Source of the DNA: Bolinopsis microptera
Taxonomy: Eukaryota > Ctenophora > Tentaculata > Lobata > Bolinopsidae
DNA: 64,000 nucleotides
Assembly (NCBI RefSeq): GCF_026151205.1
Contig: NW_026971778.1
Location: 1 to 64,000, forward strand
Direction: 5' to 3'
Shown piece by piece: positions 2,322 to 64,000 of this stretch (the first letter of the stretch is position 1; each line of letters begins with the position of its first letter). The notes beneath the pieces are model-generated. The model searched no databases. It was not told the origin of the DNA and worked only from the letters and a program-made list of their open reading frames with translations. Made by a program: the position numbers and the translations under genes.

Positions 2322-5297
2322 TTAGTTATCGTCGACTATGATTGCAGTGTAAAATTTGTCATATGAATTGTCGACGGTATAATTAGGGTCTGTTGTTATA
2401 GATGAGAGTAGCTGTTTCTTATACGAATCACTTAAGCTTTTAACATCGGGCAGATTTCGTAGATCTGTTGGAACATTATTCCAACATTTTGCCCCCAAGT
2501 ATTGAAAGTTTTTATGTGATGTTGATCTATTAACATATAGGTTGCAGCTTTCGCCGCTCCTACTACCTCCTGATATGTAACTAAATTTGTTCATAAAGTT
2601 TGTAGGACAATTGTCATGGATGATTCTAAACATATAATTTGACAGATGGAGTTGTCGTCTAAGATGGAGTGGTAACCATTTCATGTCTCTATAAACATTA
2701 AGGCTGCTCTCTGTTTGTGGAACGTTGAGAGCTATTTTGGCTACCTTTTTGTACAGAGTGTCAAGTTCAGCAAGTTTTGTCTTGCCAGCTCTACAATAGA
2801 TCGTGTCTAAATAATCGAATTGTGGCAACATGAGTGCATTGGCAAACATTTTCCTATATTTAATGGGTAGCAGTGCTTTACTTCTATACATGGCACCAAT
2901 TCTCTTCATGACCTTCTTAATAATATAATCTACATGGCTTTTGAAGTTTAATTTACTATCTAGAATGAGGCCAAGATATTTTGTCTCTTTGCACTCCTTG
3001 ATTGTGAAAGTTACCTCATTACATTCAATGGTTAATTCATCATGTTGATCAACAGAATCAAACAATAGGAATTCAGTCTTCGTTTCATTGAGTGATAATT
3101 TATTTACACTGAGCCATTTAAAGATTGTCATAAGTTCTATTTTCATGTTTATAAATGTGCTTCTGCAGGTTTGATCAAAGAATAGTGCACCATCATCTGC
3201 AAATAGAAAGGGCTTAGATAGGTTACAGGCATAAATGATGTCATTTATGAAGATACTAAATAATATAGGCCCAATGATGCTTCCTTGTGGTACACCACTC
3301 AGAACTTCTAAAAATGAACTTAGTTTGCCATTGATCCTAGTGCATTGATATCTACAAGATAAGAAGTTCTTAAACCAGGTTAAAGCAATGCCACCAATTC
3401 CATAATATGCCAATTTTTGAAGCAATATTTCATGATTCACTGTGTCAAAGGCCTTCTTAAGATCAAGAAAGATGATTCCTGGTTTATAAGACTTAGATTT
3501 ACTCATATATATTTCGTCCATCAGATCGTACATCAAATAAGTTGTGGAGTGATTTTTCCGAAAGCCATATTGATGCCGGATGAAAAGTTTGTTCTCTTCC
3601 ATGTAATCAGTGAGTTGCTTGCCGACAAAGTATTCTATAAGTTTTCCTACAAGTGGAAGGATGGATATTGGCCTGTAATTATTAGGATCATCTTTCATTC
3701 CTGCCTTATGGATGGGAGTTACTCTAGCTTTTTTACAAAGGGTTGGTACAACACCTGTATTAAGGCTCAAATTGACAATATGGGTCAGTGGCTCAACTAT
3801 GTGTGGTACAGCTTGCTTAAGTAAAAATAGAGGCACATCGTCATATGAGGCCTTGTCATTCTTGAGTGTTTCGACATACATTAGGATATCAGTTTCATTT
3901 ATTTCTTGGAATCTATCAAATGAGATGTTAGAAGTTCTAGGAGGTAAAAAATCAGTAAAACTAACTCTTTCAATATTGGGGGCCTGATTTTGTAATCTTG
4001 ATCCAACATTTGCAAAATGAAAGTTAAATAGCTCAGGATCATTCTCATTGATAGTTTGACAATTAGTTGTACCAGGGGTCATATTTGATGCCAGTTTGAT
4101 AGTTTTCCATACCCCTTTAAGATCATTCTTGGCACTTTTAACTTTTAGATCATCGATTACATTAGCCTTTTTGCAGGTTTTAGCTAATTTATTTCTAATA
4201 TTTCTCTGAATCTTGTAGCAATCCCAGGCCTCATTACACTTTATACATTTGCTACATATACCACATTTATTGCAATTTCCATTGTCTCTCTTATCCTTCT
4301 TTTTACGGAATTTCTTTAGAAGAAAATGTGTATGATTAATGGCATTTAAAAGTTCAGTAGAAGGTTTATGTATGAACTTTTCATGCCTTTCTATGGTCTT
4401 GCAAGGGAAGAAGGTTGCATATGCCTGTTCAATATGATGACAAAGGCCAGCAGTGATAGCTTCAACATCTGTACTTTCCAATAGTGGACTGTAATCAGAA
4501 CAGGTATCTAGATAGTCTAAGAATTGTTTAACATTACGTTTACAATGATTTCTAATTTCAACCTTTTCAAATTTAGGAGCTATAGGTACTTTACAATCTA
4601 TCTCACACATAATAGCTTGATGATCCCCAATACGTTCATCAAGAACAGAAGATTGAACAAAATCTGCATAACAGTTAGTGAATATTACATCAATAGTAGT
4701 CTGGGTAAAATTGTCTCCACGTTTAGCAACTCTAGTTATCCCTTGAATGGTTTGAACTAGATTGTAACATCTCAAGGTCATATCTAATTTTTTGTACTGG
4801 GTGGATGAGATATTATTCTGGTCAATGTTTATATCCCCAATCCAGATAACCTTTTTCCCGTTCAATTTTTTCATGCAAAAATTAATGTACTCAATAAAGT
4901 TATCAACACTGCAATAATTTCCAGAGCGATAGAAGCAGCAAACATTGATCTTGCTATTCTTAAGCTTCACCCATAATGCTTCAATGTTATCAAGCTTACT
5001 ATCCATAACTAATTCTGTGTAAGCTAGTTTTTTGTTTATCATCAAGCCACAACCACCCCTAGAACTGTTTGGCCTGTCGCATCGCATAATGTTGAAGGAG
5101 GAAGGAATATTTATGGTGTCTGTGTCAATAGTATCATTAAGATTCATCTCATTTAGGGAAAGTATGTCTAGCTTATGATCTCGAATGAGTTGAGTAAGTT
5201 CATTACTTTTAGCTAAATTTAGGAGACCACCTTGAATGTTACAGTGACCAATGCAAAGGTTATGAAATTTGTCAGCTGAGTTGTGAATATTTGTCAT
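2322..5297 (-). CDS. LINE-Q ORF2: endonuclease-reverse transcriptase
   Basis: This 991-residue protein copies the element's RNA into a nicked chromosome. Residues ~1-235 form an APE-like endonuclease: HCNIQGG, the glutamate motif SLNEMNL, FYRSGN, WIGDINID and a terminal GDHQAIM. Residues ~337-360 hold an odd cysteine cluster (C-x2-C repeated five times, then another C) between the endonuclease and polymerase. The reverse transcriptase follows: RPISILPLVGKLIE, motif A FLDLKKAFDTVNHE near 610, motif B SGVPQGSIIGP near 670, and catalytic motif C as FADD near 697. The C-terminal LINE domain (LPLHLRRQLHLSNYMF) is also in the plus-strand copy at 8192. The frame has no stop, so a young or recently active copy is plausible. 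No RNase H or restriction-like endonuclease is visible. Confidence 0.93.
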   Translation of the reverse strand: MTNIHNSADKFHNLCIGHCNIQGGLLNLAKSNELTQLIRDHKLDILSLNEMNLNDTIDTDTINIPSSFNIMRCDRPNSSRGGCGLMINKKLAYTELVMDSKLDNIEALWVKLKNSKINVCCFYRSGNYCSVDNFIEYINFCMKKLNGKKVIWIGDINIDQNNISSTQYKKLDMTLRCYNLVQTIQGITRVAKRGDNFTQTTIDVIFTNCYADFVQSSVLDERIGDHQAIMCEIDCKVPIAPKFEKVEIRNHCKRNVKQFLDYLDTCSDYSPLLESTDVEAITAGLCHHIEQAYATFFPCKTIERHEKFIHKPSTELLNAINHTHFLLKKFRKKKDKRDNGNCNKCGICSKCIKCNEAWDCYKIQRNIRNKLAKTCKKANVIDDLKVKSAKNDLKGVWKTIKLASNMTPGTTNCQTINENDPELFNFHFANVGSRLQNQAPNIERVSFTDFLPPRTSNISFDRFQEINETDILMYVETLKNDKASYDDVPLFLLKQAVPHIVEPLTHIVNLSLNTGVVPTLCKKARVTPIHKAGMKDDPNNYRPISILPLVGKLIEYFVGKQLTDYMEENKLFIRHQYGFRKNHSTTYLMYDLMDEIYMSKSKSYKPGIIFLDLKKAFDTVNHEILLQKLAYYGIGGIALTWFKNFLSCRYQCTRINGKLSSFLEVLSGVPQGSIIGPILFSIFINDIIYACNLSKPFLFADDGALFFDQTCRSTFINMKIELMTIFKWLSVNKLSLNETKTEFLLFDSVDQHDELTIECNEVTFTIKECKETKYLGLILDSKLNFKSHVDYIIKKVMKRIGAMYRSKALLPIKYRKMFANALMLPQFDYLDTIYCRAGKTKLAELDTLYKKVAKIALNVPQTESSLNVYRDMKWLPLHLRRQLHLSNYMFRIIHDNCPTNFMNKFSYISGGSRSGESCNLYVNRSTSHKNFQYLGAKCWNNVPTDLRNLPDVKSLSDSYKKQLLSSITTDPNYTVDNSYDKFYTAIIVDDN

Positions 5298-5432
5298 TTC
5301 ACAAAACGTGTTAGTCGTTGTGTCTGATTAAACTAAAATCAGGTGAAAATTATCCGCCTGTAAATATTTTCAATAGAAAAGTTTTAAACTTGAAATCAAA
5401 ATAAATATTCAGGTGGAAATGTCATGTCGATT

Positions 5433-7733
5433 TCAATGGTGGGCATGGTACTTGATGTGCTTTGCTAGTTTAAAGATACCATCGCTGTTTAGATGCACAT
5501 TGTCTTCCCCAAATCTACTAAAACAAGATGATTTCCTAAATCCAGATCTATCACTAAACAAAAATCGATTCATCTCTGTGGGTATAAAGCTAACAAACGA
5601 GTATTTGGAAGGAATCTTAGATAAAAAGATATTGATGTCATTTATCACTTTATTTCTAGCAAAACTTTCTCTTGGTAAAATGTTTATGATCTTAATTTTT
5701 GCAGCTGGAGCCCACGAGTGAAGTGACTGGATCAGATTATCAATAGAGCGATTGGTGTTATCAAGGGCCTTTGCTTTTCCTGTGAACTCATCGGGTGACA
5801 ATAATCTATTCCTCATGTGTCGAGGACTCTCTAGGATTAAGTCTACATCATTAGTTCCACACATGAGTACGATGGTCTTCACATTATTTGCATCAATTGA
5901 CCTCTTTCTTTCATCTGAGTGGAAGCGTTCATTGATACCGTTTGCAATGCCACCAGGATAGTGAAATACATGTGCTTCTTGATGAGCAGAGGATCCCAGT
6001 GACATAAAGTGAGGAATCTAAGAATCTAATTCCTAGCCATATTAATTTCCATAGCCACGCCGACTAATTTTTGTCAACAAAATTATTAAATCAACTTTAA
6101 AATAGTCGCTCTCGGTTGTTACACACTGTAACGCCGCGCACTGTACTTTAATTTTATATTTATCCGAGAAGATGTTCGAATCGAGCGCAAATGCCAGATT
6201 CCTGCAGGATCCTAGTTCTTGCGCTTAACTTGCGCGTTACCAAATAATCCAAGATATTTCTGTCAGGATCCAAGATTTTCCTACTACCAGTATGGTAGTA
6301 TGGACTGTTTGGTAGTATGGTAGTATGGTAGTTGCAGGAACGCGCGAAGATCTATATGTAAATATTACGAAAGCGTACATGGAATCGTAGCCTAGCCGGT
6401 TAATCCGTCGGTACTATGGTAGCAGATCGCGAGTTCGAGACCCGGAAAGGAATTCTTTCACAATCTTTTGGCAATTATGAATAACTATACTAATGAATTA
6501 ATAACTATACTAATGAATAACTAAACCTCTGTAATATAACTAGCAAAGTAAAATAAAATCGTTATCCGGCCGCGGAGCGGCCGAAAAATTTATGGTAGTC
6601 GTTTTAAAAATATATGGTAGCCGTTTTTTCTTTCCAGACTGGATTCCTAGTCCCTTTTTAAATTTATGTCACTGGGCAGAGGATAGTTTTGTAGCATCTA
6701 ACTTGGAGAACATGCTTGAGCTAACATACACAGCAAGGGATTTGCTTTTGACTGAAGCAGGGGGTACGGTGCTCTTATGAGTGATTTTGTTGGGTGATGA
6801 TTTCCCTTTGATTGAGGGTTCAGTTTCTCTTACAGTAACGAAAGGCTTACTTGAGGTATCGGGTGGAGCAGACAAGGTTGCACTGCCATCAATCTGGCGC
6901 AGAGTAATGCTAATTCTCATGTCATCAGTATGGTCCTGAATAAGGCTGTGTTCAAAGCTGTCCTGAGATTTTCTGGTCATAATCATTATGTCGCCATGGG
7001 AGAGAGTAAGATTGGCAACGTGGACTTTGCTTTTAGACCTAAAACTGAGGACTCTTGTTGCTCCTAACGATATGGTGGAAATCATGGAGCCTGGTGATAT
7101 GGACCTCTCATCATCTGAATGGAATGGTATTCCTTGCTTGCCATTTTCATACTTGGTGATCATGGCGCTGTTAAATTTCAGACTTGGGAACTGTGAGCGT
7201 AAACGTTCTAAAATAGACTTTAATAAGGGATTGTCATTTAACGGCCTTGTGTTATGGAAGCCTCCATTGTAGGCATATGGGAAATCCCCATAGTATGCTA
7301 CAGCCCTATTGTTGAACGTTTGTGTGTATTGTGTTTCCATATCCAACTTGAGAGTATCAATAAACCTGAATACACCTCGACTCAAATCATGATATGGATT
7401 GATGGACTTACCCACAACATTAACACTGGTTGAAGATTGTTTGTTAACATCAGAAGAATTCACAAGAGATGGGTTGCTATTAAGTTCAGTCACACTGCTA
7501 ACTTCACAGTTTTGAGTTTCTGATTCATGTTCAGAGATAAGAACATTGTCCCCGCAAGAGAATGGAACCGCAATTTTGTCATGGCCTGAGCCTTGGGTAA
7601 GTTTGGTTAGACGAGCAATTTGTCTCCTCAAATTGTCGTTTTCAAGACTTAGTGATACACAGGTAGAACATTTTGCTTTTGCACTGTTAGGTCTGTCACG
7701 AAGGCTGTAATTTCTGATTGGGATACCGGACAT
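5433..7733 (-). pseudogene. LINE-Q ORF1: AlkB-like dioxygenase + SGNH hydrolase, interrupted by a MITE
   Basis: Two frames (7733-6685 and 5994-5433) are continuous once the MITE and one 8-bp TSD are ignored (1611 bp, 536 residues). The N-terminus has a CSTC pair and a leucine-rich, probably coiled-coil stretch. Residues ~150-275 look like an ALKBH2-type 2-oxoglutarate/Fe(II) oxygenase: ITKYENGKQGIPFHSDDE with the HxD iron ligands near 206, the distal His in FEHSLI near 259, and the RISITLR arginines near 273. Next is an SGNH-like domain: a strand VYVSSSMF where block I usually has GDS, HYPGG, CGTND (block III) and DNVHLNSDG (block V). The missing GDS serine context could mean altered chemistry. 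The MITE falls between SGNH blocks I and II, so this copy cannot make full ORF1. Confidence 0.85.
5995..6676. mobile_element. 682-bp MITE, copy 1 (8-bp TSD, hAT-like)
   Basis: Terminal inverted repeats CCCAGTGACATAAA / TTTATGTCACTGGG are flanked by the direct 8-bp duplication CAGAGGAT (5987-5994 and 6677-6684). An 8-bp TSD is typical of hAT elements, though the 5' CC is unusual. The interior has repeated GGTAGTAT, a tRNA-like stretch with an A-box (TAGCCTAGCCGG, 6388-6399) and a B-box (GAGTTCGAGAC, 6431-6441), and a CCGGCCGCGGAGCGGCCG palindrome near 6566. There is no transposase. Copy 2 is at 49649-50331. Confidence 0.88.
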
Positions 7734-8089
7734 AGTTCAAATAAACACAATAATGCAAAGAATTCAGGATAGAGTCTAAAACCGATGCTACTGTTTATAG
7801 TTATTTAGTTGTTGATTACAGTACCTTTGCAGCAATTCAGAAGATGGGAATGAGTGGTGTCTGATATTCTTTAGGTGATAGATGGGTGATAGGTGATAGA
7901 TGGGAGTTAACAGCTCTTAAAAACGATGTCTGATAGTCTTTAGGATGTCTTTAAATAAACTATCATGCAACAACCATTTACATCGACATACAACCTGTAA
8001 TGGTTGCTACATTTGATTGAGGTGTTAATTCCCACTAGGGGTCCTCAATAAATGTAATAGATTTGTAGTGTTGTAATTAGTTTAAAACT

Positions 8090-46826: not shown

Positions 46827-46972
46827 TGTTAATCTTATATACCATTTACAGGATGGCAGAAACTCCAGGAGGTTTTGTCTGACTTGATTTGTATTCCTCG
46901 TTTGAAGTTTATGTTTCTATCATCCACTAGTGTTACTGTCTCACTTTATTGAATTAAAAGTGATAGCAGGAA
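46827..46972 (+). repeat. Candidate copia 5' LTR and leader
   Basis: TGTTAATC at 46827 is a typical Ty1/copia LTR start and abuts the broken LINE frame. AGTGATAGCAGGAA just before the Gag-Pol ATG (46973) is a possible primer-binding site. The 3' LTR is not in the window, so the LTR end and TSD cannot be confirmed. Confidence 0.4.
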
Positions 46973-51704: not shown

Positions 51705-52296
51705 CAGGAAAACAACAATTTCAGGAAAACAACAATTTTATTTAGTATCAGTTACAGCAAACAAAAAATATATTTTATATAATATAATATAACTAGGACG
51801 AACTTTAGTTTAGAAATCTTGGGGGACTTGGAGTAGCAAGAGATTGACTAGAAGGTATATACCTTTTACCAAAAACGTCGAAAAGAATCCTGGGTGATAC
51901 AGGATCGGAGAGTACAGACCATAAAGTTTACGCACCCACCTTTGCCTCCAGAATTCTTGGTTGGTTGAAAATGTATGCTAACTTGGTCGTTTATACTCCA
52001 AGTCCCTTTGTTAAAAGAAGTAACATTATGTACGTCTGGAGTTAACTTCATTCAATAATAACAATATCAATATAGTCAATATCAATATCAGACTAAACTA
52101 TCAAATAAATTATCAAATATTATTTGTTAATTCGATCTGAATAAAAATTTAGTTAAGTTAAGATATTAAATAATTAAAAACATTACAACAAGTGGTTAAA
52201 AACGCCCAAAATTGATCTGAGAGCTTTTCAGTCTATGATACAATCATGATAGTAATATTAAGTGTGTTAAGTGTGTGCTGCTGCGATAAGAATAGA

Positions 52297-55200
52297 TTAC
52301 TGCAATTTAAAATTGTTTGGATTCCAAGTATCTTTTAAATCAGCAGCCTGTACTTGTAATAATAGTGCCTTGGTTCTCAATTTTATCAAGTTAATGGAAG
52401 TTTCTAGGCAATTGCTTGAGGTTAGAATTTTTTTATGAACAGTGTTCCAAAGCTTGGCTGCAGTGAACAAAAAAATATTTGATTTATTAAGAAGAATAAC
52501 CGTTAAACTCGTTGTACGGTTTGAAATGTTGATGGCCTCATAAAGGGAGTATGGGCAGTGGTACTTGATAATCTTAGAGAATTCTGAAATGCAATGGTAC
52601 TTGAACAAGTTTTGAACTGTAAGAATTTTTAGTCTATTAAAAATGGGTTTTGTATGCTCCTTTTCAAAATGTTTATGGCCTAATCTTTGCATACCATATG
52701 GTCTAGTTCTTGCACATGTTGATTGTTTATCTAGATATGAGTCGAGATCACCAAAAAGGATCCTTATACAGTGCTTCTGAGTGATAAAAAGACTGTCATT
52801 GGACCGTTCCTTGATGACAACACCCCAAACACTTATACCATAACTGAGATGTGATTCAAAAAGAGCATTATATATTTTCAAGTATAGTTCAGCAGGTATA
52901 GAGTGCCGGATTCTACAGATTGCACCAGTCATGGTCCGCAGCTTTTTACGGATGTAGTGCATGTGGGCAATCCAGTTTAGCTTACTATCTATAACAACAC
53001 CTAAGAATTTGGTATCCTTGACTTTAGTAATAACCTTACCATCGATGAATATTGATCTAGATTCATCTAGCAGGTTAGCAAATGGTCTAGTCCGCGCACA
53101 GGTGTCATCATATTCAGAGGCAGGTTTAAAATGTATGTAGCAGCATTTGGACATGTTGATATGAAGTAGATTACATTTCATGTAAATCGAGACATGTTTA
53201 AGTACTAAGTTGGCTTTTTTATATGTTGCTTCTCTAGATGGTCCTGATATGAAGATATTAGTGTCATCAGCATAAAGTACAAATTTCACCTCACTGTCTG
53301 AAAAACAGTTTACTATATCGTTCATATACAGTAGGAAGAGTAGTGGCCCAAGAATTGACCCTTGTGGTACTCCAAATTTCACGTCCATTGTTACTGATGG
53401 TACATCGTTATACATAACATACTGCTTTCTGTTAGTCAAATAGCTTTTAAGTAAGGTAAGTGCTGAACCCCTAATACCGTAGGAATTTAACTTGCTTAGA
53501 AGAATATTGTGATCAAGGGTGTCAAAGGCTTTGCTCAAGTCAATGAATATGCCCAATACATGTTTATTGCTAGCCAGAGACTTTGTAACGGAGTCTATAG
53601 ATTTGTGTAGAGCATGAGTGGTAGAATGGCCTTTTCTAAATCCAAACTGTGAGTCTGTTAGTACACCTTTAGATGTGAAGAAATTATAAAGGCGTTTGTA
53701 AATGATCTTCTCAAAGATTTTTCCAAATAAAGGTAATATTGATACAGGCCGATAATTTTCAATGCATTCCTTATTGTCTTTCTTGTAAATAGGAATAACT
53801 TTACCAGTTTTAAATATACTTGGGAATGTACCACTTTGTATACATGTGTTGTAAAGCCTGGCCAAGGTACCAGCAATGAGCTTTGCCGATTTTTTTACAA
53901 CGATTATAGGTATGTCACTCGCCTTGCCATTTTGAAAATCTCTGATGACCTCGACAATCTCGTCTTCATTAGTTTCTTCAAGGTATATGGAGTCAGATAC
54001 TGAATTAGACATGAACTGAGCAAATGATTCTACTGGTTCCAGAGAAATACTATTGTTTGACAATACATTTTTATTGAGATTACTTGCAAGAGATGTAAAA
54101 TATTCACAAAATTTGTTAGCAATTATTCGTCTGCAAGTAACTCTCTGGCCATCTATGACAAAATCGTCCTTACATCTAGACAAATTTTTACCACGGAGTT
54201 CATTTATAACTTCCCAAGTCTTTTTCGAATTCATGCTGTACTTCTCGAATTTTTGAGTATAGCACATAGCCTTTGCCATATTTATTGACCTTTTGAGAAA
54301 CTTGTCGAATTCCTTGTAGTAGATGTGCTTGTTTGGGTCCCCGTCAGGTAGTTTTAATGTACAAGTCTTCTTCCATTCGAAATACAACCTAGCTTTCTTA
54401 TCGATGGAATTAATTAGGCCCTGGGTAATCCAAGGGTTGGTTATGCTGTTACGTTTAGTGGTTCTAGGAGTTAGAAGTTTGCAAGACAAATCTATCTTTT
54501 CTTGAAATAACTGCATGAAAGAATCAAATGTGTTACAGCTGTGGTGGAACCTATCTACATCGTTTTCTATTTCAAGACAGAGCTTTTCTAAGTTAGCATT
54601 ACTATAGTCGTAGTGTATAGTAATTTTGTCTGATGAATCAGGTGTTGGCACAGAGTCAGGGGAAAGTTCAATAAGAGTGAATATAGGGTGATGGTGGGAG
54701 ATCTTGTCAGATATCACACCAGAAATAAGGGTTTGATCTACTACATTGGTATGGATATTGTCAATACAGGTCCTGGAACAGCCAGGCATTTGGTGAGTTG
54801 GTACTGATATGGTTGGTATGAAGCCGTTGTTGAATATTATTTCTTGGAATTTGTCCTCTGATGGAGATGGGTCCTTCAACATGTTTATATTGAAATCACC
54901 AAGAATATATACTTTTTTGCCATTCAGTTTTGAGAGAATACATTCATATGCTTCGTTGAACAGTTCAAGTGATGCGTTTGGGGGACGGTATATAACCCCT
55001 ACAACAGTTGGGTCTTGCAAGCTAGTGATGGATACGAACAGTGATTCTATGTGTTCATTACAGAGAGATAAGCCAGGGATTTTGTTAAAGTTAAAGGAGT
55101 TGTGCAGGTAAAGACACACTCCTGATCCTTTACCCTTGAACTGGTTTTTCTTTTGACAAAAATAACGTGATTGGTAACAGGAGGAGTATCCGTTAAGCTG

Positions 55201-55701
55201 ATACAGAGTTCCATTTTCGGGATTAGTATTTGTTTCTGCAAGACCGATAACAGAGAATTTGTGGTCGATACAAGACAGCTCAACTGCAAAGTTGTCAAAG
55301 TTTGATGCATTTCCATCAATATTTAGGAATAATTTGGACAAATATTTAGCTGAATTTTTAGGTAGGATGGTAGCATTCAACTCAGTTATGGAGAATGTTT
55401 TGCAATTTTCAAGAATCTTTGAGCTATTGTAGATAGATTCAATATAATTAACTGGCTCATCATCAATGAGGCCATTGTTTGCAAAGTGTGGAGCTTGGTA
55501 GAAAGGGTTGTACCGTACAATATCATTGGCATCAGTGCATATTTTGCAGTATGTTGCATCTCGAAATTTGGTTATGTTATCATCAGTTTTACATTTTTTG
55601 TGCATTATTTTGTCACACATCTGACAAATCAAAAATGGATGTCCAGCACGCACAGGTCTATCGCAACAGCAGCAGATTTCGCATATCAGTTTGACTACCA
55701 T
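52297..55701 (-). CDS. LINE-P copy 1 ORF2: PHD-like finger, APE endonuclease, reverse transcriptase
   Basis: 1134 residues, intact frame. The N-terminal zinc finger (CEICCCCDRP...FLICQMCDKIMHKKC...YCKIC, ~8-57) looks like a PHD-type C4HC3. APE endonuclease: FLNIDGNASNFD, SVIGLAETNTNP, YILGDFNINML and a terminal SHHHPIF. RT: RPVSILPLFGKIFEKII, motif A IDLSKAFDTLDHN, motif B FGVPQGSILGP, motif C LYADDTNIF. The C-terminal LINE domain holds CARTRPYGMQRLG. It is roughly two-thirds to three-quarters identical to copy 2 by eye, so they are different subfamilies. The start ATG overlaps the ORF1 stop by 7 nt (ATGGTAG). Confidence 0.92.
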   Translation of the reverse strand: MVVKLICEICCCCDRPVRAGHPFLICQMCDKIMHKKCKTDDNITKFRDATYCKICTDANDIVRYNPFYQAPHFANNGLIDDEPVNYIESIYNSSKILENCKTFSITELNATILPKNSAKYLSKLFLNIDGNASNFDNFAVELSCIDHKFSVIGLAETNTNPENGTLYQLNGYSSCYQSRYFCQKKNQFKGKGSGVCLYLHNSFNFNKIPGLSLCNEHIESLFVSITSLQDPTVVGVIYRPPNASLELFNEAYECILSKLNGKKVYILGDFNINMLKDPSPSEDKFQEIIFNNGFIPTISVPTHQMPGCSRTCIDNIHTNVVDQTLISGVISDKISHHHPIFTLIELSPDSVPTPDSSDKITIHYDYSNANLEKLCLEIENDVDRFHHSCNTFDSFMQLFQEKIDLSCKLLTPRTTKRNSITNPWITQGLINSIDKKARLYFEWKKTCTLKLPDGDPNKHIYYKEFDKFLKRSINMAKAMCYTQKFEKYSMNSKKTWEVINELRGKNLSRCKDDFVIDGQRVTCRRIIANKFCEYFTSLASNLNKNVLSNNSISLEPVESFAQFMSNSVSDSIYLEETNEDEIVEVIRDFQNGKASDIPIIVVKKSAKLIAGTLARLYNTCIQSGTFPSIFKTGKVIPIYKKDNKECIENYRPVSILPLFGKIFEKIIYKRLYNFFTSKGVLTDSQFGFRKGHSTTHALHKSIDSVTKSLASNKHVLGIFIDLSKAFDTLDHNILLSKLNSYGIRGSALTLLKSYLTNRKQYVMYNDVPSVTMDVKFGVPQGSILGPLLFLLYMNDIVNCFSDSEVKFVLYADDTNIFISGPSREATYKKANLVLKHVSIYMKCNLLHINMSKCCYIHFKPASEYDDTCARTRPFANLLDESRSIFIDGKVITKVKDTKFLGVVIDSKLNWIAHMHYIRKKLRTMTGAICRIRHSIPAELYLKIYNALFESHLSYGISVWGVVIKERSNDSLFITQKHCIRILFGDLDSYLDKQSTCARTRPYGMQRLGHKHFEKEHTKPIFNRLKILTVQNLFKYHCISEFSKIIKYHCPYSLYEAINISNRTTSLTVILLNKSNIFLFTAAKLWNTVHKKILTSSNCLETSINLIKLRTKALLLQVQAADLKDTWNPNNFKLQ

Positions 55702-56036
55702 GACTGGATTACAGATCTACGAGAACGTGGGGAAAATCTATTTTGGGCCTTGGTAACATCACTGAACAACCTCCCATCAACGGGGCTACCTAGAATCTTA
55801 TGGGCAATTGCCCGGGAGAGTTTGAAGATACCGCTTGACCCCAGGTGGATTGGGTCATCCGGCTTCTTGTACCTACAAAACTGTTTGTTCAGTAGACCCT
55901 CCTCATCGACAAAACTATCAAAATCTAAATTTCCTATTCTAGCGTTGGTATTACAGTACCCAAACAATATACTATTAAACTCCATGGCTCTCTCATTTAG
56001 CCAGGAGGACCTAGTTGGTAGGATTGGTGAAACTAT
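55695..56036 (-). pseudogene. LINE-P copy 1 ORF1, C-terminal part
   Basis: Encodes the end of the SGNH hydrolase domain (SPILPTRSSWLNE, then KKPDDPIHLGSSGIFKL with block V DxxH). Its upstream half is displaced to 62684-64000 by the copy 2 insertion. Stop TAG at 55695. Confidence 0.87.
56030..56036. repeat. 7-bp TSD, left copy
   Basis: AAACTAT, repeated at 62678-62684; the two copies bracket LINE-P copy 2. In uninterrupted ORF1 the sequence reads GTGAAACTATAACTTTAGAG, so the copies are the two sides of one site. Confidence 0.75.
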
Positions 56037-56569
56037 CAAGAAAACAACAATTTTCAAGAAAACAACAATTTTTTATTTAAATCAATTATAGCAACAATTT
56101 GAATAACTTTAAAGTTCTTCTATTACCATGGAATATACTACGGGTATGGTGACTTGGGCTATTGGGTTGTTAAGTAGATTAAGATTAGTAAACCTGCACT
56201 TGCATTGTATTTATAAAAACTAGAAATTAGGCTTCACGGTAAAATGGAGAAGCAGGCTGATCTTGGAGAGAGCAGACCGTAAAGTTTACGCACCCACCAG
56301 GGCTACCTACCTACCCCAGTTGTTCTTTTTGGTTTATCAGCTTGTATTGTTATATTTATGGACCCCAAGTCACCACACTAAGAAGGAGTATGTAAAAAAA
56401 AAAAAAAAAAATAATAATAAGTTAAGTTAATATCATCATATCAGTTTAAAACAGTAAATGCTAAGTAGAGGATTGAATTTCCTAGTTAATTTAATGGTTC
56501 AAACGTTTGGGAATATAATAATGTTGGTATTTGTATCTGCTGCAGCAATAATATCGATATGTCATTTGT

Positions 56570-59500
56570 CTATAAAATTTTCGCCACTTCAATAGATATT
56601 GGGTCGGCAATTTGGTGAGTGAGTGATGAACTGGTTTGGTCTGTGACTGAGTGAGGGGCGATGTGAAAGTTGTGGTAAGTCCAGGTGTTATTATTGTTGA
56701 TGGATTGGGATCCCAGGATGATACTTTTACAGCGTAATTTAACCAAAGATACAGAAGTAGTGAGGATTTCCCCATTCTCATTTAGAATCCGTTTATGTAT
56801 GCTATTCCACAATTTGGAGGCTATATAAAGAAACGTGTTGGATTTTCTTGGGAGGATTATGACATTACTTGTATCACGTTTTGATGAGTCTATAGTACAA
56901 TACAACGAGTATGGAGTGCGAAATTTCATAATTCGAAATATCTCAGATATACAGTGGTATTTGTACAAGTTTTGAACAGTAAGCAATTTTAGTCGATTAA
57001 AAATGGGCTTGGTGTGCTCCTTTTCGAAAAAAGCAGCTCCTAACCTCTGTTTTGTATAAGGTCTGGCTCGTGCACAAGTGGCATGTTTGTCAAGGTATGC
57101 ATTTAGGTCTCCAAAAAGGATTCTTATACAACGTTTCTGAGTTATGAACAGCTTATCGTTTGGTTGGTCTTTGAGGGCTGAGCCCCAAACACTTATTCCG
57201 TAAGCAAGATGTGATTCCAATAATGCAGAGTATATTTTTTGGTAGTGTTCCCCTGGAACTGAATGTTTAATCCTGTTAAGTGCTCCTGTAGTGGATCTAA
57301 TTTTTTTTCTTAGATATTCTATATGTGGGCCCCAGCTAAGTTTTTCATCAATTACTACACCAAGAAATTTGGTGTTGCTAACCTTGACAATTTTGTGTCC
57401 ATTTATAAATATTCCTTGTGATTTGTCATATTCATTGGCATACGGCCTAACTCTGGCGCAGGTTTCATCAGATTCGTATGCAGGTAGAAAATGTATGTAG
57501 CAGCATTTAGACATATTTATATGTAAGAGATTACTTCTCATGAATTTGCATACGAAATCAAGAACTTTATTGGCCTTCAAGTATGTTGATTCTTTGGACG
57601 GTCCAGTGATAAATATATTTGTGTCATCAGCATAGAGCACAAATTTGCATTCATCACCTTTGTAACAGTTTATTATGTCGTTCATATATAATAAGAAAAG
57701 TAGAGGGCCTAGTATGGAACCTTGGGGAACTCCATATTTTACATTCATAGTCTCTGATGTAGTGTTGAGAAATGAAACATACTGTGATCTATCCGATAAA
57801 TAGCTTTTTAGAAGTCCTAGAGCTAGACCTCTAACCCCATAATTTTCCAGTTTCCTCAGGAGAATGCCATGGTCAAGAGTGTCAAAAGCTTTGCTTAGGT
57901 CAATAAAGATTCCTAGAACATGATTACCACTGGATGTTGATGTTGTGATTGAATGAACTGATTTGTGGAGTGCATGTGAGGTTGAGTGGCCTTTTCGAAA
58001 ACCAAATTGTTCATTACTGAGAATGTCATTAGCAGTGAAAAAGGTATAAAGCCGTTTGTATATTATTTTTTCAAATATCTTACCAAAGATTGGCAATATT
58101 GACACAGGTCTATAATTTTCAATATTTTCTTTGTTATCTTTTTTATGGATAGGAGTTACTTTGCCTATTTTGAATATGGATGGGAACGTGCCTTTTTGAA
58201 TACATGTATTATACAAATTTGCTAATATGTTGGATAAGAGATAAGCCGGTTTCTTGATAACTGCTATTGGTATATCACTGGCTTTTCCGTTAACGAATTC
58301 TTGAATTATTTCAAGAATCTCCTCAGGATGAGTTTCTTCTAGATGTATTGAACTGTTGACTGATTTCGACATAAACTCAACAAATGATTGCATTGGTTGG
58401 ATAGACAGTTGGTTGTCGGACAAAACTTTCTCATTTAAATTACTAGCTAAAGATGTAAAGTAACTATTGAATTTGTTTGCAATTGTCCGCCTACAAATTA
58501 CTCTAGTTCCATCTATAATGAAGTCATCTTTTAGCTGATTCTTCTTTTTGCCACGAAGCTCGTTGATTATTTGCCAGGTTTTTTTGGAGTTATGGCTATT
58601 TTTCTCAAACTTTTCAGCATAATACCTGGTTTTGGCAGTTTTTATGGCAATTTTAAGATATTTTGAGTAGTCCTTGTAAACATTATGTTTTTCCGGATCC
58701 CCATCTGGAATTAACAATGTTTCTGTTTTTTTCCATTCAAAATAAAGTCTGGCTTTTTTCTCCACAGAGTTGATAAGGCCGTTTGTGATCCATGGATTTG
58801 TTATGTTATTTCGTTTGGTGGTTTTTGGTGAAGCCAATTTGCAAGATATATCTATCTTTTCTTGAAACAGATCCATGAAGGATTCAAAAGAGTCACATCT
58901 GTGGTAGAATGTATCTATGTCGTTTTCAATTTCTTCACAGAGCTTATCAAGGTTTGCATTACTATAGTTATAATAAATGGTTGTTTTTTCAGGTGGTTTA
59001 TTCTGTTCCGAACTAGCATCAGAATTCATTACTTGAAGGCAGAAAATGGGCTGGTGATGTGAAGCACTATCCTGAATTACTCCAGATATAGTTGATGAGT
59101 GAATGTCATTAGTGTGTATGTTATCAATGCACGTTTTTGAGCAGTGGGGCATTTGGTGTGTGGGAATGGATATTGTGGGCGTGAACCCATGACTATAAAT
59201 AACTTCTTCAAATATATCTTCATCTGGGCCTGATAAATTGGTTATGTTAACATTGAAGTCCCCTAATATGTATGCTTTATGTCCTTTCAGTGCAGTAAGA
59301 ACTTCTTTATACTGTGCATTGAAGTTAGCAAGTGGATTGCTTGGTGAGCGGTATACAACTCCAACTGTTACTGGTTCTGGAGCATTACTTATTGTTACAA
59401 ATAGGGACTCAAAGTGCTCTGTACAAACAGATAACTTTTCAATCACACTAAAGTTAAAGGAGTTGTGAATGTAGAGAGAAACTCCACTTCCTTTCCTTTT

Positions 59501-60073
59501 TACCTGTTGTGTCTTATTAGAAACGAAGCGTTTTTGGTAACATGAAGTATAGTCTTTAAGTTGGTACAGCTGACTATTGCAGGGATCAATGTTTGTTTCT
59601 GCTAGACCTATCACAGAAAATTTATGGTCTATGCAGGCTAATTCTAAAGCCAATTTGTCAAAGTTAGTACCATTTCCATCAATATTTCGAAAGTAGTGTG
59701 AGAAAATGCTCTTTGATGTTGATTGAGGAATCTGCTTTATGAGGTTGTTGAAGTTTTTAGTAGAATATGATTGACAGTTCTCAAGAGTTTTTGAGATTGT
59801 ACCTATTGAGTCTATATAGTCGTGAGGTTCATTGTCAAGTAGTTCGTTGTTTGAAAAGTGAGGTGCTTGATAGAATGGATTATAACGAATTATATCATGA
59901 TTTTGAATACAGTTTGAGCAGTAAGTTTTTTCTCTAAAAGTGGCAATGTTTTCCTGTGTTTTACATCTCTTGTGAATGATGCAGTCACACTTATTGCAAT
60001 TTATAAATGGGTGTCCAGCACGAATAGGTTTGCTGCAGCAGACACAGTTCTCACATATACGTTTGGCTATCAT
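56570..60073 (-). CDS. LINE-P copy 2 ORF2: PHD-like finger, APE endonuclease, reverse transcriptase
   Basis: 1167 residues. Zinc finger ~8-57 (CENCVCCSKP, FINCNKCDCIIHKRC, YCSNC). APE endonuclease ~115-345: FRNIDGNGTNFD, SVIGLAETNID near 158, YILGDFNVNI near 270, SHHQPIF near 336. RT ~600-880: RPVSILPIFGKIFEKII near 655, IDLSKAFDTLDHG near 722, YGVPQGSILGPLLF near 788, LYADDTNIF near 813. C-terminal LINE domain with CARARPYTKQRLG and KLWNSIHKRI. The ATG overlaps the ORF1 stop in ATGA, so translation may depend on re-initiation after ORF1. The LDHGILL / VPQGSILGPLLF pattern is of the CR1/L2/Jockey type. Confidence 0.94.
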   Translation of the reverse strand: MIAKRICENCVCCSKPIRAGHPFINCNKCDCIIHKRCKTQENIATFREKTYCSNCIQNHDIIRYNPFYQAPHFSNNELLDNEPHDYIDSIGTISKTLENCQSYSTKNFNNLIKQIPQSTSKSIFSHYFRNIDGNGTNFDKLALELACIDHKFSVIGLAETNIDPCNSQLYQLKDYTSCYQKRFVSNKTQQVKRKGSGVSLYIHNSFNFSVIEKLSVCTEHFESLFVTISNAPEPVTVGVVYRSPSNPLANFNAQYKEVLTALKGHKAYILGDFNVNITNLSGPDEDIFEEVIYSHGFTPTISIPTHQMPHCSKTCIDNIHTNDIHSSTISGVIQDSASHHQPIFCLQVMNSDASSEQNKPPEKTTIYYNYSNANLDKLCEEIENDIDTFYHRCDSFESFMDLFQEKIDISCKLASPKTTKRNNITNPWITNGLINSVEKKARLYFEWKKTETLLIPDGDPEKHNVYKDYSKYLKIAIKTAKTRYYAEKFEKNSHNSKKTWQIINELRGKKKNQLKDDFIIDGTRVICRRTIANKFNSYFTSLASNLNEKVLSDNQLSIQPMQSFVEFMSKSVNSSIHLEETHPEEILEIIQEFVNGKASDIPIAVIKKPAYLLSNILANLYNTCIQKGTFPSIFKIGKVTPIHKKDNKENIENYRPVSILPIFGKIFEKIIYKRLYTFFTANDILSNEQFGFRKGHSTSHALHKSVHSITTSTSSGNHVLGIFIDLSKAFDTLDHGILLRKLENYGVRGLALGLLKSYLSDRSQYVSFLNTTSETMNVKYGVPQGSILGPLLFLLYMNDIINCYKGDECKFVLYADDTNIFITGPSKESTYLKANKVLDFVCKFMRSNLLHINMSKCCYIHFLPAYESDETCARVRPYANEYDKSQGIFINGHKIVKVSNTKFLGVVIDEKLSWGPHIEYLRKKIRSTTGALNRIKHSVPGEHYQKIYSALLESHLAYGISVWGSALKDQPNDKLFITQKRCIRILFGDLNAYLDKHATCARARPYTKQRLGAAFFEKEHTKPIFNRLKLLTVQNLYKYHCISEIFRIMKFRTPYSLYCTIDSSKRDTSNVIILPRKSNTFLYIASKLWNSIHKRILNENGEILTTSVSLVKLRCKSIILGSQSINNNNTWTYHNFHIAPHSVTDQTSSSLTHQIADPISIEVAKIL

Positions 60074-62199
60074 GACATAACTACGGATCTACGAGAACGT
60101 GGGGAAAATCTTTTTTGGGCCTTGGTAACATCACTGAACAACCTCCCATCAACAGGGCTACCTAGGATCTTATGGGCAATTGCCCGGGAGAGTTTAAAGA
60201 TACCGCTTGACCCCAGGTGGATTGGGTCATCCGGCTTCTTGTATCTACAGAACTGCTTGTCCAGTAGACCCTCCTCATCAACAAAACTATCAAAATCTAA
60301 AGTGCCTATTCTAGTATTAGTATTACAGTACCCAAATAATAAACTATTAAACTCCATGGCTCTGTCATTCAGCCAGGAGGACCTAGTTGGAAGGATGGGT
60401 GAAACTATAACTTTAGAGTATGGACACATATCACAAATATTCTTGAGCTTCTTTGTCAGCTCATTAGCCCAATGTTTAACATCATCCCCTCCCCTCTTGA
60501 TATTATTTACACCACAGTGTACTACAACGTTCTTGTATCCTACACAAAGAACAGGGTCTAACTGATCTATTGTGAAACATTCAATTCTTTTCCCAGGCAG
60601 TTTGTGACCAAATGTTCCTTTTCCAGCCCCAAATTTGAGGAACCGGGTGTTTGAATCACCAATAATCAAAGTCGCATTGGTGCTCCTGCTTACGTAGCGA
60701 AAGGTTATACTGTATCTCAATTCCCTCTTATCTGTGCTCTTATCAATACGGTGGTCCCACAGAAACTGGGACTGTTTGCTCATCACATAGAGACTACGTC
60801 CCTCTATTGTCTCTACGATTTCTCCTTCAAGTTGATCCTTTTTTGTGAATTTGACAGAACAATCACCACCTAAGGATACTGTAAAAATGGAACTATCATG
60901 GACCAATGATTGCTCGTTATCAGAGTGCTTAGGAAGAAAGCTGTTCCCATCGGTGTACCGATTTATCAAGCACTGATTGATTGTTGAACTAGGACATTCT
61001 TCCTTTATCTTGGAGACAAGCTGATTAAGAACCTCAGGAAATTCTGTTGATGTCGGTTTTTCAGCTTTAGCCCCCGGGTACTGATAAGGTTCGCCAAAGC
61101 TCACAACCCCATGTCCATTTTCGGAGTTACTATCAAAGGCTTCCTTCTGTTGGTCTAAGAAAACTGAAAGCTCAGAGTTCAATTTTTCATCTACAAATTC
61201 TGGGACATACGACAGAATGTGCTTGGACTTAGGGTCGTCTACACTTGCATGCTTCTGTGCATCTAGGAGAAGCTGTTCTTGGTCTGTTTCACATGGAGCA
61301 GGTGACCTTATATGGAAAGGAGGCATGGTCAGATCAGGGGTGGAAACATTTGACGACCTACTGTTTTTAAAACAGTTGATGTCAAGTTTGAGCTCAGCAA
61401 GCTTGTTGTTGATAGAGTCAAGAGTTTTGAGATGGCTATCATTGTCTTTGAGGTTCTTGATGGAGATCTGGATGGCTTCTAGAGAATGGTGTATAGAGCT
61501 ACCATCAGATGTAGTGTGACCCGTTGGCATGCTCATGCTGCAGGGAGCTGACAAGTAGGAAGGGGACTTGACTTCGTTGTCAACTCTCTGTCCATTCACC
61601 ACAGCGCAAACACTTTCAGCAAGACCTAGCAGGGATAGGAGACCTTCTGCTAGGGTGAGCTTGTTCAGAGATGAACAGCTCTTGATCATGTGTGGAGTAA
61701 TGATTGCAAACTTATTTATTTCAAGTTTTAAGATACTGCAAATGTTAATCTTGATTAAGTCTACCTCGGAGCGTAGGTTCTGTGCATGGGTTAACAGATA
61801 GGTGTCGAGGGGAGCAGATCTATTTGAGAAGAAACTAAGGAGACTGCTGACATTTTTGTCTTCTTCTGAGTCCTGATTTTCTGAATGAATTATTTTATCG
61901 ACATCTCGAAGCATTTCGTCAATATCATCAATGACTGAAGCTGAGGGGGTGGTGGGTGTATCCTGATCGGGAACCGTAGTGGACGAAGTCTGGTCTGCAG
62001 CAGGTTGAGGTTTCTCACACTTTTCTGTTTGAGTGTCAGTGGGGGTTTCCATCATGGTGAAGAAGCAATGGGGGTACCAGGCAGACCAGGGGGCACCTTC
62101 ACGTCCAACCAGCACACTCACTGAAAAGAAGGAAGAGCAGAAAGTAGTTTGAAATGTTCTGTTGTGGAAAACAATGAAAGTGTAAACTGGATTAGTCAA
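60070..62199 (-). CDS. LINE-P copy 2 ORF1: AlkB-like dioxygenase + SGNH hydrolase
   Basis: Open frame of 709 codons. The ATG at 62055 (context ACCATGATGG) is the more likely start and gives ~661 residues. The N-terminal third is Ser/Thr-rich with hydrophobic and coiled-coil-like stretches (LDSINNKLAELKLDIN). Numbering from 62199, ~365-500 is an AlkB-type 2-oxoglutarate/Fe(II) oxygenase: SFGEPYQYPGAK, LINRYTDGNSFLPKHSDNE (HxD iron ligands near 423), WDHRIDK (distal His near 483), RYSITFR (2OG-binding Arg region near 495). ~510-670 is an SGNH/GDSL hydrolase: LIIGDSNTRFL (block I Ser), HCGVNNIK (block III) and DPIHLGSSG (block V, DxxH). Esterase-type ORF1 is known in CR1/L2 LINEs; the AlkB half is the unusual part. 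Likely substrates are unknown. Confidence 0.88.
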   Translation of the reverse strand: MTNPVYTFIVFHNRTFQTTFCSSFFSVSVLVGREGAPWSAWYPHCFFTMMETPTDTQTEKCEKPQPAADQTSSTTVPDQDTPTTPSASVIDDIDEMLRDVDKIIHSENQDSEEDKNVSSLLSFFSNRSAPLDTYLLTHAQNLRSEVDLIKINICSILKLEINKFAIITPHMIKSCSSLNKLTLAEGLLSLLGLAESVCAVVNGQRVDNEVKSPSYLSAPCSMSMPTGHTTSDGSSIHHSLEAIQISIKNLKDNDSHLKTLDSINNKLAELKLDINCFKNSRSSNVSTPDLTMPPFHIRSPAPCETDQEQLLLDAQKHASVDDPKSKHILSYVPEFVDEKLNSELSVFLDQQKEAFDSNSENGHGVVSFGEPYQYPGAKAEKPTSTEFPEVLNQLVSKIKEECPSSTINQCLINRYTDGNSFLPKHSDNEQSLVHDSSIFTVSLGGDCSVKFTKKDQLEGEIVETIEGRSLYVMSKQSQFLWDHRIDKSTDKRELRYSITFRYVSRSTNATLIIGDSNTRFLKFGAGKGTFGHKLPGKRIECFTIDQLDPVLCVGYKNVVVHCGVNNIKRGGDDVKHWANELTKKLKNICDMCPYSKVIVSPILPTRSSWLNDRAMEFNSLLFGYCNTNTRIGTLDFDSFVDEEGLLDKQFCRYKKPDDPIHLGSSGIFKLSRAIAHKILGSPVDGRLFSDVTKAQKRFSPRSRRSVVMS

Positions 62200-62677
62200 A
62201 ATGATTCAAAAGATTGAAAAATTGAACAGACTGACGGACTACGACACATGGGACAAGAGAGTGAGTGAGTATGAAAAATATGAGGTGGTTGGACTGGCAA
62301 GCCCTATCATTTAATCAGAATACATTACATATAATCCATAAGCCATATATGTCAGCCTGTTCTTGGAGCACAGCCCCAAAAGTTATCAGAAGTGATGTTC
62401 AAGTTTCAAGTTTAAAATTCTTTCAACACTATCTACACATTAATCAGGGTTGTCCAATTGTCCAATTGTGGATTGTGGTGTGAATGGAGTTATACATTGC
62501 CAAACAGAAACATTATTCACTACAACTACTTAACTTCTTAACAGGTTAAGAGTGCCAGTCTTCTGTTTCAGCACCCCCTGGACCATCATAGTACCCCCGA
62601 TGCAGTTGACTTTAGCAAGCCATGGACATATTGGACATCCTCAAATTATTTGTTATATAGTAGTGTTGAAAGTATTA
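62200..62677 (-). other. LINE-P copy 2 5' UTR
   Basis: 478 bp between the displaced ORF1 half of copy 1 and the ORF1 frame of copy 2. No gene seen; the internal promoter of the LINE would be expected here. Confidence 0.5.
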
Positions 62678-64000
62678 AAACTATAACTTTAGAGTAAGGA
62701 CAAATTTCACAAATATTCGTGAGCTTCTTCGTCAGCTCATTAGCCCAGTGTTTAACATCACCCCCTCCCCTCTTAATATTATTTACACCACAGTGTACTA
62801 CAACATTCTTATATCCTACACAAAGGGCAGGGTCTAACTGATCTATTGTGAAGCATTCAAGTCTTTTTCCAGGCAGTTTGTGACCGAATGTCCCTTTTCC
62901 AGCACCAAATCGGAGGAACCGGGTATTTGAGTCACCAATAATCAATGTTGCATTGCTACTGCTGCTCACGTAGCGGAATGTTATACTGAATCTCACGTCC
63001 CTCCTTTCACTGCTCTTATCTATTCTGTGGTCCCAGAGGAACTGAGACTGCTTGCTCATGATATATAGACTGCGTCCCTCTATTGTCTCAATGACTTCCC
63101 CACTTTCTGATCCTTTCATTGAGAACTTAACTGAACACTGGCTTCCTAATGATACAGTGAAAATCGAACTATCATGCACAAGCGAGTTCTCGTTATCCGA
63201 GTGTTTAGGGAGAAAACTGCTCTCATCATTGTACCGGTTGATCAGGCATTGATTAATAACTGTTTCAGGGCAAAGCTTCTTTATCCTTGAGGCAAGTTCA
63301 GCAAGAACTTCAGGCAGGTCTTCTGATATGGGCTTAGCAGCTTTTGCCCCGGGGTAATCATATCGTTCACCAAAGCTTATAACTCCATGCCCGTTTTCTG
63401 TGTTCTTGACAAAATCATCGTTCTGTTGAGCAAGGAAATCTAATAGCTGAGAGTTCAAGGTTGTATCAATGAATTCTGGTAAATAAGACATGATGTGCTT
63501 AGACTTAGGGTCGTCTGCACTTGAAGGCTTCTGTGCATCTAGCAGGAGCTGTTCATGGTCTGTTTCACAGGCTGCTGGTGGCCCTATGATAAAAGGAGGC
63601 ATGGGCAGGTCAGGAGTGGATACGTTTGAGGATCTGCTGTTTTTGAAACAGTTAATATCAACTTTGAGCTCAGCAAGCTTGGTGTTTATGGAGTCAAGAG
63701 TCCTAAGGTGGCTATCATTGTCTTTCAAGTTTTTAATGGATGTTTGAATATCTTCTAAGGACTTGTGTATAGAGCTTTCGTTAGAAGTAGTATGACCCAT
63801 TGGAATGCTGGAGGGGGCTGACAAATAAGAAGGGGACTTAACCTCGTGGTCACATCTCTTGCCACTTATTACAGCACAGACATTTTCTGCAAGGCCAAGC
63901 AGGGATAGTAGACCCTCTGCTAAGGTGAGTTTTTTAAGAGATGGGCAGCTCTTAACCATAGATGGCGTTATGATTGCAAATTTGTTCACATCAAGTTTTA
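62678..64000 (-). mobile_element. LINE-P copy 1, displaced 5' portion (runs off the window)
   Basis: The 5' half of the LINE whose 3' half is at 51705-56036. The break is at AAACTAT in ORF1 in both halves, and both are on the minus strand. The element continues beyond 64000. Confidence 0.83.
62684..64000 (-). pseudogene. LINE-P copy 1 ORF1, N-terminal and middle part (partial)
   Basis: The frame is open to the window edge. It has AlkB-like residues (LINRYNDESSFLPKHSDNE, WDHRIDKSSERRD, RFSITFR) and SGNH block I and III (LIIGDSNTRFL, HCGVNNIK). It departs from ORF1 after CPYSKVIV, where the copy 2 insertion begins. Its C-terminal end is at 55695-56036. Confidence 0.87.

Follow-up and report, generated by a model that had tools for sequence, protein, structure and literature searches.

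A LINE encoding AlkB and SGNH domains in ORF1

A complete 6.6-kb insertion of a long interspersed nuclear element (LINE) with two open reading frames (ORFs) was identified on the minus strand of a 64,000-nt stretch of the Bolinopsis microptera genome (contig NW_026971778.1, positions 1 to 64,000; the whole of this stretch is referred to here as the window). Its first ORF (ORF1) was shown to encode an AlkB-type 2-oxoglutarate (2OG)-Fe(II) dioxygenase domain followed by an SGNH hydrolase domain. Such a fusion had been proposed in a first-pass annotation made from the sequence alone, and is supported by a Pfam match (PF13532, 1.3e-18) and by an SGNH profile that retrieves the LINE esterase structure 4c1b (2.4e-8). 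The element and its surroundings comprise the following features, given with the evidence for each.

56037..62677, minus strand: complete LINE insertion, 6641 bp, nested in an older related LINE (alignment of the related copy L023 to the flanks)
62678..62684, no strand: target-site duplication ATAGTTT, 5' side of the element (flank comparison)
56030..56036, no strand: target-site duplication ATAGTTT, 3' side of the element (flank comparison)
60070..62055, minus strand: ORF1 from the first in-frame Met, 661 aa; the frame is open from 62205 (711 codons)
61276..62055, minus strand: N-terminal region of ORF1, with a heptad-like stretch judged by eye; no Pfam match below E=0.09
60691..61173, minus strand: AlkB-type 2OG-Fe(II) dioxygenase domain, residues 345-505 (PF13532, 1.3e-18; ALKBH3 by profile, 2.7e-30)
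60913..60927, minus strand: H427-S-D429-N-E431, two putative iron ligands and a Glu matching ALKBH2 E175 (residue matching by counting)
60751..60753, minus strand: H485, putative distal iron ligand (aligned domains)
60697..60717, minus strand: RYSITFR, arginine motif R497..R503 (aligned domains)
60166..60678, minus strand: SGNH hydrolase domain, residues 510-680, with S518, N567, D660 and H663 (Pfam, alignment and profile)
56570..60073, minus strand: ORF2, intact; its ATG overlaps the ORF1 stop
59909..60058, minus strand: Cys/His-rich PHD-like or C1-like finger at the ORF2 N-terminus (Cys/His spacing; Pfam C1 weak, 0.03 and 0.06)
59042..59683, minus strand: AP-type endonuclease domain of ORF2 (PF14529, 1.3e-4; PF03372, 9.4e-4; both under curated cut-offs)
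57350..58150, minus strand: reverse transcriptase domain of ORF2 (PF00078, RVT_1, 5.8e-40)
62685..64000, minus strand: older LINE copy, 5' part, with AlkB and SGNH (PF13532, 1e-16, in its ORF1 part); runs off the window
52297..56029, minus strand: older LINE copy, 3' part, with the remaining SGNH and ORF2 (ORF reading, L023 alignment)

The related copy L023 matched the window at 99.5-99.8% on both flanks of 56037-62677, with a 7-base self-overlap at the junction. As both flanks bear ATAGTTT, the insert measures 6641 bp, and the continuity of L023 across the flanks, together with ATAGTTT on each side, indicates that the LINE inserted itself into a related LINE copy that was already in place. 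The 3' end of the LINE carries an 18-base unit twice.

The position of ORF1 upstream of an ORF2 with an apurinic/apyrimidinic endonuclease (APE) and a reverse transcriptase (RT), as described at first pass, was corroborated by the RVT_1 match (5.8e-40), by the two endonuclease matches (below cut-off) and by the overlap of the two ORFs, the stop codon of the first and the start codon of the second sharing ATGA at 60070-60073. The N-terminal finger of ORF2 is PHD-like by spacing, yet its Pfam matches are to C1 models alone, and weak. A Pfam search of the window ORFs returned no RNase H match at E<=1. The element exhibits the traits of APE LINEs of the CR1/L2 kind, i.e. two ORFs, an APE endonuclease (sub-cut-off), an RT, a target-site duplication and a repeated 3' end, and is provisionally assigned by its domain make-up to the APE-type two-ORF LINEs of this kind.

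Domains of ORF1

Residues 369-503 of ORF1 matched PF13532 (2OG-FeII_Oxy_2) with 68.3 bits against a cut-off of 31.2 (E=1.3e-18), in agreement with the AlkB assignment for which such a profile search had been suggested. Chance or composition as the source of this match is rejected by its E value and by the deep conservation described below. The motifs occur on the minus strand in the order originally read, with those of AlkB (H427/D429, H485, R497..R503) followed by the GDS, GxN and DxxH blocks of SGNH hydrolases (S518, N567 and D660..H663, respectively).

The equivalent search of the SGNH region upheld the assignment in part, as residues 545-667 did match Lipase_GDSL_2 (E=9e-4), but with a score below the cut-off (20.2 versus 32.9 bits). 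As a single sequence, the SGNH domain of the window retrieved no PDB match at E<=10. A profile of five SGNH domains of the type found in this element (A-type) retrieved 4c1b, the esterase of zebrafish ZfL2-1 ORF1 (2.4e-8), as well as a platelet-activating factor acetylhydrolase (PAF-AH)-like enzyme (2hsj, 1.5e-9).

Recurrence in LINE lineages and a Helitron

To our first-pass reading of one element, the genome added many copies of the fusion, also outside LINEs. When the assembly from which the window derives (264.65 Mb in 232 contigs) was searched with PF13532, 151 matches were reported; of 587 candidates, 150 were scored, and all 150 listed exceeded the cut-off. Thirty-five of these 150 loci were sampled, representing 3 A-type, 15 B-type, 7 C-type, 7 D-type and 3 host-like loci.

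In the A-type loci (L044, L064 and L066), ORF1 encompasses a weak PHD-finger match, AlkB and SGNH, and is followed by the start of ORF2 with a Cys/His finger and an endonuclease. SGNH was observed alongside AlkB in 14 of the 15 B-type loci (in L040 in a different frame), L055 being too short. Within the short stretches examined, nine of the 15 have an endonuclease ORF downstream, and a longer stretch at the place of L037 (L061) was shown to contain both endonuclease and RT. The window itself holds an element of this second, divergent LINE lineage (B), with a split ORF1, at 2322-7736:

6669..7736, minus strand: part of lineage B ORF1 with the AlkB domain (PF13532, 2e-18)
5433..6017, minus strand: SGNH part of lineage B ORF1, here lying outside the frame that holds AlkB, whereas numerous further copies read as a single 537-aa frame (ORF reading, Pfam, lineage B search)
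2322..5327, minus strand: lineage B ORF2, endonuclease and RT (PF00078, 1.9e-35; PF03372, 1.7e-7)

With the lineage B ORF1 as query, 117 matches were reported from 786 candidates; open frames of 537, 551, 611 or 630 aa are common among them, and some contain many stops. One copy, L070 (C5:10638600-10639680), differs from the lineage B copy of the window by 15 substitutions and 56 gap positions. The gaps of L070 and the stop-rich copies perhaps reflect an unpolished assembly, not decay.

Among the C-type loci the RT was reached in L063 only, where AlkB is followed by a linker, a weak SGNH-like domain and an RT that is 25-30% identical to the RTs of A and B. A whole D-type element was obtained only from L062 and L069 combined (C10:16871000-16886300), as one frame of 3388 aa in the order SGNH, proline-rich linker, AlkB, DUF6570, Helitron_like_N (3.1e-22) and PIF1 helicase (2.8e-22). 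Lineage D is a Helitron, with a Rep-type N domain and PIF1 in one protein at this one locus. SGNH also stands ahead of AlkB in L035, and the remaining D-type loci were assigned via similarity of their AlkB region.

Profile comparison of the SGNH domains with that of A gave 98.5% probability (2e-15) for B and 85% (6e-6) for D. The SGNH domain of lineage C is the weakest call (Pfam 0.057; hhalign against A 39% probability, E=3e-4). The B-type profile matched a PAF-AH-like enzyme at 2e-4, with no match to 4c1b. By domain content, AlkB and SGNH are thus combined in LINE lineages A and B, which are clearly distinct, in C with a weak SGNH call, and in reversed order in the Helitron lineage D.

The association with RTs was also evident from position. 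For 26 of the 150 PF13532 matches, one of the listed RT matches follows on the same strand at a distance of 1.5-6 kb, versus one each for upstream on the same strand, downstream on the opposite strand and upstream on the opposite strand; for the matches to the ORF1 protein of the window (family A, see below) the corresponding counts are 17 of 63 versus 0, 0 and 0. Conversely, 42 of 150 RT matches have a match from the AlkB list or family A upstream on the same strand. As the RT list comprises 150 of 6502 candidates, these counts are lower bounds. Two scans of viral contigs, each based on short peptides from one sequence and therefore able to reach close relatives alone, gave no match.

Copies and selection

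A search of the assembly with the ORF1 protein yielded 63 scored matches among 959 candidates, 20 of which span at least residues 12-710 without a stop. The family A alignment consists of 31 rows from 30 loci, L001 duplicating the window copy. The alignment excludes L025, in which a stop interrupts the frame, and ORF pieces of <=440 aa, and 33 of the 63 matches lie outside this sample. Across pairs with a synonymous divergence (dS) of 0.05-1.5, the median ratio of non-synonymous to synonymous divergence (dN/dS) was 0.107 for AlkB (236 pairs), which is as low as in SGNH (0.103, 391 pairs); the N-terminal region gave 0.18 (398 pairs). Residues H427, D429, H485, R497, R503, S518 and N567 are kept in all 31 rows, and D660 and H663 in 27 of 27, the four further rows stopping short of them. 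Neutral decay of the HxD..H..R residues, for which a dN/dS comparison had been proposed at first pass, was not observed: the residues are conserved throughout, with an AlkB dN/dS of about 0.11.

In the other lineages, median AlkB dN/dS was 0.123 for B (nine usable pairs, 30 saturated), 0.073 for C (22 pairs) and 0.203 for D (24 pairs), based on 17, 8 and 8 rows, respectively, with one locus counted twice in each. AlkB and SGNH are both present, intact and under purifying selection. Furthermore, the comparison of L016 with the window ORF1 gave a dS of about 1.75 in AlkB and 0.26 in SGNH, so that the two modules seem to have been exchanged between LINE subfamilies.

Relatives of the AlkB domain

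An alignment of 24 AlkB domains (21 from transposons and three host-like) revealed that the HxD pair, the Glu two positions on, a Tyr putatively equivalent to Y122 of ALKBH2, the distal His and both Arg are invariant in 24 of 24, where the equivalence of Tyr and Glu to ALKBH2 Y122 and E175 was assigned by residue counting. In ALKBH2, E175 and Y122 are reported to bind the amino group of 1-methyladenine (m1A) and 3-methylcytosine (m3C), E175A being inactive (PMC12295762). In bacterial AlkB, the exchange of D135 for Ile is reported to permit demethylation of N6-methyladenine (m6A) (PMC7968990). By our own matching, D135 would correspond to the Glu of ORF1 and ALKBH2. The aligned positions show that the AlkB part keeps the residues predicted to serve iron binding, 2OG binding and base recognition.

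When a profile built from 14 transposon AlkB domains was compared with PDB sequences, the best matches were ALKBH3 (2.7e-30) and ALKBH2 (5e-25), followed by ALKBH8 (1.4e-13) and bacterial AlkB (1e-10). By single sequence, ALKBH3 was matched at 1.1e-6 in one search; in another, ALKBH8 (3.0e-7) was level with ALKBH3 (2.1e-7). None of the 39 PDB sequences matched by the profile at E<=0.01 is named ALKBH5 or FTO; four chains named DNA N6-methyl adenine demethylase matched weakly (1.6e-4 to 1.5e-3).

In the tree, rooted on the long-branched ALKBH8, lineage C grouped with ALKBH2/3 of host and human origin (97/94), and A, B and D fell outside this group. Family A was not recovered as a single clade (L064 stands apart), and support for A, B and D together reached only 66/66. 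A single origin of all transposon AlkB domains was weakly rejected (approximately unbiased test, p=0.03), a result made unsure by long branches. Capture of AlkB by transposons on two or more occasions is considered likely from these sequence comparisons. The host-like relatives, each in one open frame, grouped with human ALKBH2 (L031, 100/98) or with ALKBH3 (L032 and L033, 88/83).

Proposed role and alternative explanations

LINE ORF1 proteins are usually regarded as packaging proteins. The ORF1 protein described here would probably be a ribonucleoprotein (RNP)-packaging protein that coats the element RNA and has two built-in enzymes, an ALKBH3/ALKBH2-like dioxygenase and an SGNH esterase. The AlkB part would oxidatively demethylate A and C at their Watson-Crick face (m1A, m3C) in the LINE RNA template and first-strand cDNA or, in Helitrons, in single-stranded DNA. 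Such lesions form on exposed bases and stall reverse transcription, so that more of the copies would be full-length with a demethylase on board. The SGNH part may have a membrane or RNP-assembly role, as proposed for the zebrafish LINE esterase, or perform some other deacylation. As a joint explanation, demethylation of the element's single-stranded intermediates by AlkB, with SGNH in one of these roles, accounts best for the data, and we give it about an even chance of being correct.

A target within the LINE itself, its RNA or cDNA, would be in keeping with the profile likeness to ALKBH3/2. With OTTR, which employs an engineered RT of the Bombyx R2 element, AlkB is reported to have erased m1A and m3C and to have improved capture for most 3' tRNA halves; the authors link the gain to m1A58 impeding reverse transcription, and capture of intact tRNA changed modestly (PMC12140624). 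Membrane targeting by SGNH has been suggested for ZfL2-1 (PMC3905857).

Several observations weigh against this explanation. The loci were drawn from the top of score-ranked lists, which biases the sample towards intact copies, although the low dN/dS between subfamilies at a dS near 1 is less open to this bias. Helitrons have no RT and transpose via single-stranded DNA, and the unblocking of an RT alone therefore cannot explain family D; LINEs and Helitrons alike would be accounted for if the enzyme acted on single-stranded intermediates in each. The arginine motif reads RxSxTxR in 21 of 21 transposon rows, versus RxNxTxR in ALKBH2, ALKBH3 and the host-like rows, and in the absence of the RxNxTFR motif of ALKBH2/3 the transposon AlkB was not filed as a member of the ALKBH2/ALKBH3 subfamily. 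Human ALKBH8 likewise has Ser in its R-motif and, to our knowledge, is not a lesion-repair enzyme. An ALKBH8-like identity was nevertheless rejected, the profile match to ALKBH8 being far below those to ALKBH3 and ALKBH2, although the single-sequence matches to ALKBH8 and ALKBH3 are level. The placement of A, B and D apart from ALKBH2/3 in the tree implies that the substrate of family A may have shifted. Finally, the AlphaFold model of residues 326-690, computed with three window sequences as input, was poor (mean pLDDT, i.e. predicted local distance difference test, of 51). Foldseek with this model returned SGNH esterases and ALKBH3 among 21 matches at E<=0.001, with template modelling (TM) scores of <=0.47 by target length; those of the ALKBH3 and ALKBH2 matches were 0.17-0.36, and little weight is attached to this model.

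It is possible, if unlikely, that AlkB instead erases a mark (m6A or m1A) which the host writes on the element RNA, allowing that RNA to dodge recognition or decay. A host mark would account for AlkB in several element types, and the weak matches to DNA N6-methyl adenine demethylases point in the same direction; conversely, we know of no mark on ctenophore transposon RNA. Orchid Gypsy elements are reported to encode an AlkB with m6A demethylase activity, for which an escape role was proposed (PMC9289625), but that enzyme is ALKBH5-like, whereas the domains analysed here match ALKBH3/ALKBH2 best and retrieve no chain named ALKBH5 or FTO. Moreover, m6A is reported to help L1 in human cells and ALKBH5 to suppress it (PMC7873242). 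Countering of host RNA methylation, as envisaged at first pass, thus seems less likely in the case of m6A.

It is doubtful that AlkB is catalytically idle and merely binds single-stranded nucleic acid in place of the RRM/CCHC domains of other ORF1 proteins. RepBase ORF1 proteins of the esterase type are described as having no known structural RNA-binding domain (PMC3905857), and the orchid AlkB is reported to keep RNA binding in a mutant devoid of demethylation (PMC9289625); however, even very divergent copies retain every one of the iron, Arg and base-recognition residues, which binding alone should not need.

That the pair recurs in LINEs and Helitrons, with either domain first, would suit a two-enzyme eraser, in which AlkB oxidises and SGNH hydrolyses an ester or acyl group of one modification. 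We know of no such modification, and the available text of the papers on the SGNH domains of a fish LINE ORF1 and fish Helitrons does not mention AlkB (PMC3905857, PMC4021074); this scheme is regarded as quite improbable. There is a similarly slim chance that AlkB and SGNH form a portable cassette, acquired or swapped by unrelated elements (two or three LINE lineages and Helitrons) in response to a host modification of transposon nucleic acid that no enzymes but this pair remove, AlkB oxidising and SGNH hydrolysing one adduct; this would represent an undescribed chemical arms race. A recently captured neutral passenger is scarcely credible: captured fragments are common in Helitrons, but the family A dN/dS of about 0.11 over dS values up to and past 1, together with iron and Arg residues kept in 21 of 21 aligned transposon domains from divergent lineages, rejects it for the lineages examined.

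Demethylation of single-stranded intermediates, if correct, would mean that jumping genes may carry their own means of keeping copying templates clean. A LINE ORF1 here bears a conserved nucleic-acid demethylase-like enzyme, the same pair is seen in a Helitron, and Helitrons and LINEs have little in common beyond a single-stranded intermediate. This raises a testable question, i.e. whether methyl damage or marking of such intermediates is a barrier to transposition that elements pay to overcome. In addition, at least 150 AlkB matches in one genome provide a natural set for studying the capture of enzymes by mobile elements.

Other features in the window

Two further ORFs with RT matches were observed: a 1082-aa ORF at 40311-43559 (minus strand; PHD finger, 1e-4, and weak RVT_1, 8.4e-5, both below cut-off) and a 546-aa ORF at 45192-46832 (plus strand; RVT_1, 4.4e-11). 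A Copia-type element in two frames lies at 46967-51782 on the plus strand (integrase rve, 2.9e-11; RVT_2, 1.9e-30). The minus strand also harbours an Exocyst Sec10-like coding stretch of a host gene at 37999-39471 (Sec10_HB, 1.6e-21) and, at 29354-29884, a short repeat that is open in three minus-strand frames.

Comparison with known systems

The open-access full-text matches listed for LINEs or Helitrons with AlkB contained no such element, Repbase and the subscription literature being outside this scope. What appears new is the addition of AlkB to an esterase-type LINE ORF1 and the return of the same pair in a Helitron, of which a description elsewhere may exist. Among the closest known LINEs is zebrafish ZfL2-1, an L2 element (PDB 4c1a/4c1b), which likewise has two ORFs and a C-terminal SGNH esterase in ORF1; it is a vertebrate element, and neither AlkB nor an oxygenase occurs in the available text of the paper (PMC3905857). 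More broadly, CR1/L2 LINEs of the Jockey superfamily share the APE-RT ORF2, a variable ORF1, PHD-type fingers and, in some groups, an esterase ORF1, while the words AlkB and oxygenase are absent from the main text, as available, of the Jockey survey of 448 elements by Metcalfe and Casane, 2014 (PMC4120745).

Among other transposons, the Phalaenopsis Ty3/Gypsy element with paALKBH5-like resembles the present LINE as a retrotransposon with an extra AlkB-family enzyme, reportedly active on m6A RNA in vitro. It differs in being a long terminal repeat element whose ALKBH5-like enzyme occupies a separate ORF2, and SGNH is unmentioned in the available text (PMC9289625). Fish Helitron-texim offers the complementary case of an SGNH hydrolase tied to a Helitron, texim being related to CR1-encoded proteins; unlike in lineage D, texim is a neighbour gene or overlaps by an intron and does not share a frame, and AlkB occurs 0 times in the available text (PMC4021074). 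Human ALKBH3 and ALKBH2, by contrast, are host repair enzymes with RxNxTFR rather than RxSxTxR and with no SGNH or RT partner, yet they represent the best profile matches of the transposon domains, with which they share the iron, Arg and putative base-recognition residues.

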